A stretch of 64,000 nucleotides of DNA, taken from NCBI RefSeq assembly GCF_022747945.1, contig NZ_JALDST010000001.1:4030001-4094000 (forward strand), read 5' to 3'. Origin of the DNA: Micromonospora sp. R77. Its GTDB lineage: Bacteria > Actinomycetota > Actinomycetes > Mycobacteriales > Micromonosporaceae. Of this stretch, positions 25,572 to 25,925 are shown in pieces. Position 1 is the first letter of the stretch. Each line of letters begins with the position of its first letter. The notes under the pieces are model-generated. The model worked only from the letters and a program-made list of their open reading frames with translations, did not search any database and was not told the DNA's origin. The translations under genes and the position numbers were made by a program.

Positions 25572-25925
25572 ATGGCCATCGAGGTTCGCATCCCCACCAT
25601 CCTGCGCAGCTACACCGGCGGCGCGAAGGTCGTCGAGGGCGCCGGGGACACCCTGGGCGACCTGCTCGCCGACCTGGACTCCCGGCACGCCGGCCTGCGC
25701 GGCCGGCTGGTCACCGACACCGGCACACTGCACCGCTTCGTCAACGTCTACGTCAACGACGAGGACGTCCGCTTCCTCGGCGCGCTCGACGCCAAGCTCA
25801 ACGACGGCGACAGCGTGACCATCCTGCCGGCCGTGGCCGGCGGCGCGTTCGGTTTCGCGGCGGCAGCGGCGATCAGCCAGCACCGTGCGGCAGCCGGGCA
25901 GCGCGCGGCCGTCGCCGCCCGCTGA
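25572..25925 (+). CDS. cysO: Sulfur-carrier protein CysO (MoaD/ThiS family) with C-terminal extension
   Basis: Ubiquitin-fold sulfur carrier for cysteine synthesis by CysM. Residues 1-91 match CysO and reach the Gly-Gly ([10 protein letters not shown]90-G91) whose carboxylate becomes the thiocarboxylate. Unlike the normal CysO, which ends there, translation runs on for 26 Ala-rich residues ([20 protein letters not shown] plus six more) to a TGA at 25923-25925. The tail must be removed before thiocarboxylation; neighbouring Mec is an obvious candidate. ATG 25572 with AAGGAG at 25557-25562. Confidence 0.87.

Follow-up and report, generated by a model that had tools for sequence, protein, structure and literature searches.

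A conserved tail past the Gly-Gly end of CysO in Micromonosporaceae points to a precursor, most likely trimmed by the JAMM peptidase Mec

In thioquinolobactin biosynthesis, the JAMM peptidase QbsD exposes the Gly-Gly end of a ThiS/MoaD-like sulfur carrier, QbsE, by removing Cys-Phe. The pair differs from the CysO case described here in its dipeptide cap, its siderophore pathway and its proteobacterial host. CysO of Mycobacterium tuberculosis ends at Gly-Gly, so Mec there only releases cysteine; the 93-residue PDB chain of this protein stops at the Gly91 position. M. tuberculosis has the same three proteins as our locus, CysO, Mec and CysM (PDB 3dwg), and its Mec hydrolyses CysO-cysteine (PMC3227635); the genes share an operon type in which clpS and a gene for a helical protein also occur (PMC1779556). 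A capped carrier as a rule depends on a protease, QbsD being an example (PMC6006322). In Streptomyces platensis, PtmS2 and PtmS3 carry a cap after Gly-Gly (MV or C), the JAMM gene ptmS1 is clustered with ptmS2, and deletion of ptmS1 abolishes the downstream thioacid product, which relies on the capped carriers (PMC6006322). Deleting ptmS2, the gene of the clustered capped carrier, alone had no effect, for which the authors suggest redundancy, so that the link between this system and JAMM trimming is indirect (PMC6006322). In the archaeon Caldiarchaeum, the JAMM peptidase Rpn11 removes a nine-residue tail of the ubiquitin precursor exactly after Gly-Gly, and bulky residues just past the cut prevent processing (PMC6043591); the likeness to CysO lies in a tail that a JAMM peptidase would cut, the difference in the modification system with E1, E2 and E3. 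In MoaX, a fused MoaD-MoaE protein, cleavage after Gly-Gly likewise releases a ubiquitin-like carrier; unlike that of CysO, its tail is a whole enzyme subunit, and its protease is described as unidentified (PMC4326299). Capped carriers dependent on a JAMM peptidase, the kind of precursor processing that the original prediction took as its model, are documented (PMC6006322; PMC6043591).

The locus reported here lies in a 64,000-nucleotide stretch of Micromonospora sp. R77 DNA, which we call the window, and consists of clpS, a DUF2017 gene, mec, cysO and cysM in this order, all on the + strand. The Clp adaptor gene clpS (24172..24462; Pfam ClpS PF02617, 80 bits) is overlapped by the DUF2017 gene (24459..24959; PF09438, 166 bits), and the cluster fits the operon type given for actinobacteria in table row 4d of PMC1779556; the DUF2017 protein probably corresponds to the helical protein, as yet uncharacterised, that is listed there. 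The peptidase gene mec (25015..25503; Pfam Prok-JAB PF14464, 106 bits) encodes the JAMM motif E ... H-x-H-x7-S-x2-D as E23, H79, H81, S89 and D92. Its end is separated by 68 bases from the downstream cysO, a clustering of JAMM gene and carrier like that of ptmS1 and ptmS2, and cysO adjoins both mec and cysM (25936..26901; Pfam PALP, start GTG at 25936) in the window and likewise in relatives. CysM, the CysO-dependent cysteine synthase, has its best PDB match in 3dwg (chain A, E 9e-150), where this chain is paired with M. tuberculosis CysO. The best PDB sequence matches of CysO itself are 4n6e and 3dwg; its structure model also matches these two entries, which are the Amycolatopsis and M. tuberculosis CysO proteins. 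The CysO query has one match in the genome.

The cysO gene starts at an ATG at 25572 and encodes 117 residues. The beta-grasp body, residues 1-91 (25572..25844, + strand), ends in the Gly90-Gly91 codons GGC GGC (25839..25844), and 26 sense codons (25845-25922) follow before the TGA (25923..25925), which lies 10 bases ahead of cysM. CysO therefore has residues beyond Gly-Gly, as capped sulfur carriers do, and both the position and the length of the tail originally predicted are exact on direct reading. Since the Pfam ThiS match (64 bits) spans residues 5-91 only, the tail stands outside the ThiS domain. The expected cleavage point after Gly91 would separate the body from a proximal tail, AFGFAAA (codons 92-98, 25845..25865, + strand), and a distal tail of 19 residues (25866..25922, + strand). 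An AlphaFold model built with 51 aligned sequences is usable for the CysO body; a predicted tail helix (94-115) was dropped from consideration, with pLDDT near 50 and below 50 for residues 90-96. Among the three ThiS-family carriers of this genome CysO alone is capped, and the other two end in AAQGG and PFAGG. We also read 11 of 15 listed distant paralogues in relatives: nine end at Gly-Gly, one ends in GGA, and one (L196) is a MoaD-like protein with a 134-residue domain, by eye of hotdog thioesterase appearance, fused after Gly-Gly.

To place the tail in context, we examined the junction in 168 distinct genes, which represent 34 family-level groups (31 from the own genus, counting L085, 58 from other genera of the family and 79 from other families), a non-random sample in which the best-scoring matches were combined with regions hand-picked to cover genera and families. 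The motif filter left out L140 (GGA end, Mec adjacent), L132 (in which no CysO was found) and paralogues. CysO has a match in 197 of 200 family genomes, 38 of them from the own genus and 159 from other genera. All 31 own-genus genes carry a tail, of 8-60 residues; among the 58 genes from other genera, 50 have at least one extra residue and 38 at least 10, and the remaining 8 are tailless; L187, which is truncated by a contig end, is counted here as a one-residue cap (GGM). The 79 genes from the 33 other families comprise 35 that end at Gly-Gly, 30 with 1-2 extra residues, 6 with 3-9 and 8 with at least 10. The 44 with extra residues have 1-49 of them, and some extra residue occurs in 16 of the 33 other-family groups. 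At the protein level, the best 120 of 8000 hits all have a tail, of 14-50 residues, and are mostly from Micromonospora where named.

The alignment across Micromonosporaceae proposed in the original prediction thus shows a conserved tail, and homologues all ending at Gly-Gly, the case named as its refutation, were not what we found: tails are common in the family. The accompanying premise that CysO normally ends in Gly-Gly was too strong, as it describes 35 of the 79 other-family genes and fails for 44, as well as for the present CysO, whose primary product runs 26 residues further. Because so many other-family genes carry extra residues, a Gly-Gly end is a poor criterion for an encoded CysO product. 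A sequencing or annotation error at the cysO stop codon, which we considered practically inconceivable as an account of the tail, is refuted by the recurrence of the same junction in 31/31 own-genus genes, each read in a different genome, as well as in 120/120 of the best 120 of 8000 proteins. The open frame itself was rejected as proof of a coding tail: the tail DNA has a G+C content of 80%, and both remaining frames of the strand are mostly open too, with a stop in 4/31 and 0/31 genes, so that openness by itself is weak proof. The idea that the tail fills an intergenic gap was unsupported as well, many tailless relatives likewise having short cysO-cysM gaps. In the 12 family genes with tails of at least 31 residues, the distance from stop codon to cysM is 10-14 bases.

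Substitution patterns are more informative. Across 30 of the 31 own-genus genes, codons 92-98 (AFGFAAA) have a pS of 0.37 and a pN of 0.009, giving a pN/pS of 0.024 (the full 31 genes give the same result), against 0.09 for the last 20 body codons, 0.24 for the whole body and 0.61 for codons 99-108 of the distal tail; because pairwise counts over related genes are non-independent, we report these as ratios only, without a p-value. Sliding windows agree: pN is 0 over codons 85-91, and several body windows, some with a pN of 0, are as constrained as the proximal tail or more. By these values the peptide sequence of the proximal tail is conserved to about the same degree as the Gly-Gly end, and the distal part is much freer. 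Selection on the first seven codons argues that the tail is coding and constrained. Among the best 120 of 8000 proteins, it starts A-[FL]-[GA]-F-A-A-A-A-A-[ILM] with few exceptions, and length past the proximal tail varies by repeats such as the ten-residue AAAAAISSHS; a repeated 6-mer occurs in 36 of these 120 proteins, a count that includes alanine runs.

The same data bear on two other accounts of the tail. If CysO had lost its sulfur-carrier role in the family and simply kept its tail, Gly90-Gly91 would hardly be invariant in 30/30 own-genus genes, with a pN of 0 over codons 85-91, nor would mec and cysM be retained beside cysO; we regard this as very improbable. More broadly, Gly-Gly is present in 124/124 tail-bearing genes extracted and, over the whole set of 168 distinct genes, in all but the improperly extracted L187 (167); the extraction pattern demanded Ala/Ser/Thr-Gly-Gly/Ala/Ser, so that a changed second Gly was detectable and other changes only partly. 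Such retention in tail-bearing genes would not be expected unless the Gly-Gly end has a use. Four of 352 proteins depart from the junction pattern, and two of them read AVAGD or AVAGR instead of AVAGG. A less remote alternative, compatible with Mec trimming, is that the tail is functionless and tolerated: losing the stop codon, or changing length through slippage of repeats at the 3' end, would be harmless because Mec can remove what joins the CysO glycine. The weak constraint on codons 99-108 and the spread of lengths from 8 to 60 residues with ten-residue repeats fit such drift, whereas a pN/pS of 0.02 at high pS in the first seven codons, and an AFGF-type start in 66/89 family genes and 27/41 sampled genera, do not.

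In a quick-method tree of Mec and CysM, covering 115 of the 168 distinct genes under a per-group limit and with matches to both proteins needed, the AFGF-type tails fall within one 45-row family clade (SH-aLRT 96), in which two genes are tailless and some others have tails of a different sequence. A parsimony count over the 115 rows gives 10 changes between tails of <4 and ≥4 residues. Unrelated tails that arose independently in other families, and tailless members within the tailed clade, are what harmless drift would produce, and overall we consider a functionless tail a possible but distinctly less probable account. Neither the tail nor its AFGF start is essential to the pathway, given tailless genera and non-AFGF starts within the tailed clade. 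The two tailless members, L171 (g5) and L057 (g25), whose CysO ends at Gly-Gly and whose genomes are 69% and 80% complete, are natural comparators for a tail deletion.

Outside this clade the tails take several forms. Frankiaceae-type genes have tails unrelated to the AFGF type, many of which repeat a ten-residue unit; in L102, L108 and P0241-P0253 this unit is the last strand plus Gly-Gly, present 1-2 times. Some Frankiaceae-type tails thereby end in Gly-Gly again, and such an end could be activated without trimming. A GG end occurs in 14 of 60 non-AFGF tails of at least 6 residues, and L088, L172 and P0324 have non-AFGF CysO tails ending in AGG, for example AAQKGTAGG twice over. One metagenome protein of 197 residues, P0257, consists of two MoaD/CysO-like domains in tandem, joined head to tail through a Gly-Gly; we liken it to a polyubiquitin precursor, though fused genes or faulty assembly may also account for it.

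The residue directly after Gly-Gly is restricted. In the 124 tail-bearing genes it is Ala in 89, Ser in 20, Met in 9, Cys in 3, Arg in 2 and Gly in 1, so that Ala, Ser, Met, Cys or Gly follows in 122. Among 99 distinct non-AFGF tails the first residue is S in 47, A in 38, C in 5, G in 4, M in 3 and R in 2, with an entropy of 1.71 bits at this position and 2.82 and 3.29 bits at the next two. The preference for a small residue may be partly due to shared ancestry. Cys is the residue after Gly-Gly in the known substrate of Mec (PMC3227635). Among the 120 matches listed for a Geodermatophilaceae-type CysO query, 41 end in Gly-Gly-Cys by exact pattern, named as Modestobacter and Blastococcus, and 53 in Gly-Gly; L100, L138 and L142 also encode a single Cys after the Gly-Gly of CysO. 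If cysteine is joined to CysO by an ordinary amide bond in the CysO-cysteine adduct, a Gly-Gly-Cys protein would equal that adduct made by the ribosome: such a CysO is probably a ribosomal copy of the CysO-cysteine that Mec hydrolyses.

We then asked which enzyme could remove the tail. A profile search of the genome gave a single Prok-JAB match, Mec, and no match to PF01398 (JAB). Mec lies upstream on the same strand in 89/89 CysO genes with tails of at least 4 residues, with 24-487 bases between the aligned parts, and its E, H, H, S and D residues are intact at all 89 loci. Its presence fits trimming and is not specific to tails, because Mec is also upstream on the same strand in 41 of 42 tailless genes. 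Prok-JAB matches occur in 119/150 order and 126/148 class genomes, and matches to CysO 1-91 in 122/150 and 129/148, counts so close that "tail but no Mec" is inseparable by whole-genome counts. At L155 and L166, which have a two-residue cap and belong to a group (f33) that we take to be Streptomyces, the JAMM gene is about 5 kb away and non-adjacent. That another protease cuts the tail and Mec hydrolyses CysO-cysteine only has a parallel in M. tuberculosis MoaX, cut after Gly-Gly by a protease that PMC4326299 leaves unidentified. Against this, in our survey of JAMM-type peptidases Mec is the sole Prok-JAB match and is encoded next door, a Gly-Gly-Cys end would itself be a Mec substrate, and loss of the JAMM peptidase PtmS1 in Streptomyces is uncompensated (PMC6006322), so that we judge a separate protease improbable.

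The most likely reading is therefore that CysO is a precursor trimmed by Mec, which also releases cysteine. We infer both the identity of Mec as the trimming enzyme and a zymogen role for the tail. CysO would be made inactive, its C-terminal glycine blocked by the tail and closed both to a MoeZ-like enzyme, for adenylation and thiocarboxylate formation, and to CysM. A MoeZ-like ThiF-rhodanese protein encoded elsewhere in the genome, its rhodanese part recognised by eye, could be the activator. Mec, encoded just upstream, would cut after Gly91 to free Gly-Gly and would later hydrolyse CysO-cysteine to cysteine, so that the pathway would use it at two steps. The first residue past the cut would be kept small, like cysteine; AFGFAAA probably either binds on the primed side of Mec or packs against CysO, and the distal tail would be a spacer under loose constraint whose length changes as repeats are gained and lost. 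A more specific idea, which we consider unlikely though worth stating, is that AFGFAAA is read by Mec so that one peptidase licenses CysO and releases cysteine, with its two substrates competing to give feedback, or else that the released Ala-rich peptide has a separate role. If such reading took place, Mec occupied with CysO-cysteine would leave unprocessed CysO to accumulate, and cysteine synthesis would have a feedback built into it. A degron role of the tail beside ClpS is speculation.

Capped sulfur carriers that need a JAMM peptidase are known already; what is new is the length of the CysO tail, its family-wide conservation and the selection on it. In the PtmS system the cap measures 1-2 residues, against 26 in the present CysO and 8-60 in its genus with a constrained AFGFAAA start, and the read-out there is a thioacid, not cysteine (PMC6006322). 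A limited search of open-licence literature met no description of long CysO tails, and a CysO reported with Micromonospora was set aside, being another gene of that name (PMC9290621).

Taken together, if the precursor reading is true, CysO-dependent cysteine synthesis in this actinomycete family cannot begin without Mec, which gains a maturation role besides product release. On the practical side, CysO of these strains is best cloned with Gly91 as its last residue. Natural CysO caps range from none through a single Cys and two residues to 60 residues, with repeated Gly-Gly units besides, and offer a way to measure what a JAMM peptidase tolerates after Gly-Gly; the case would also show how ubiquitin-like propeptides can arise beside a peptidase that already cuts there.
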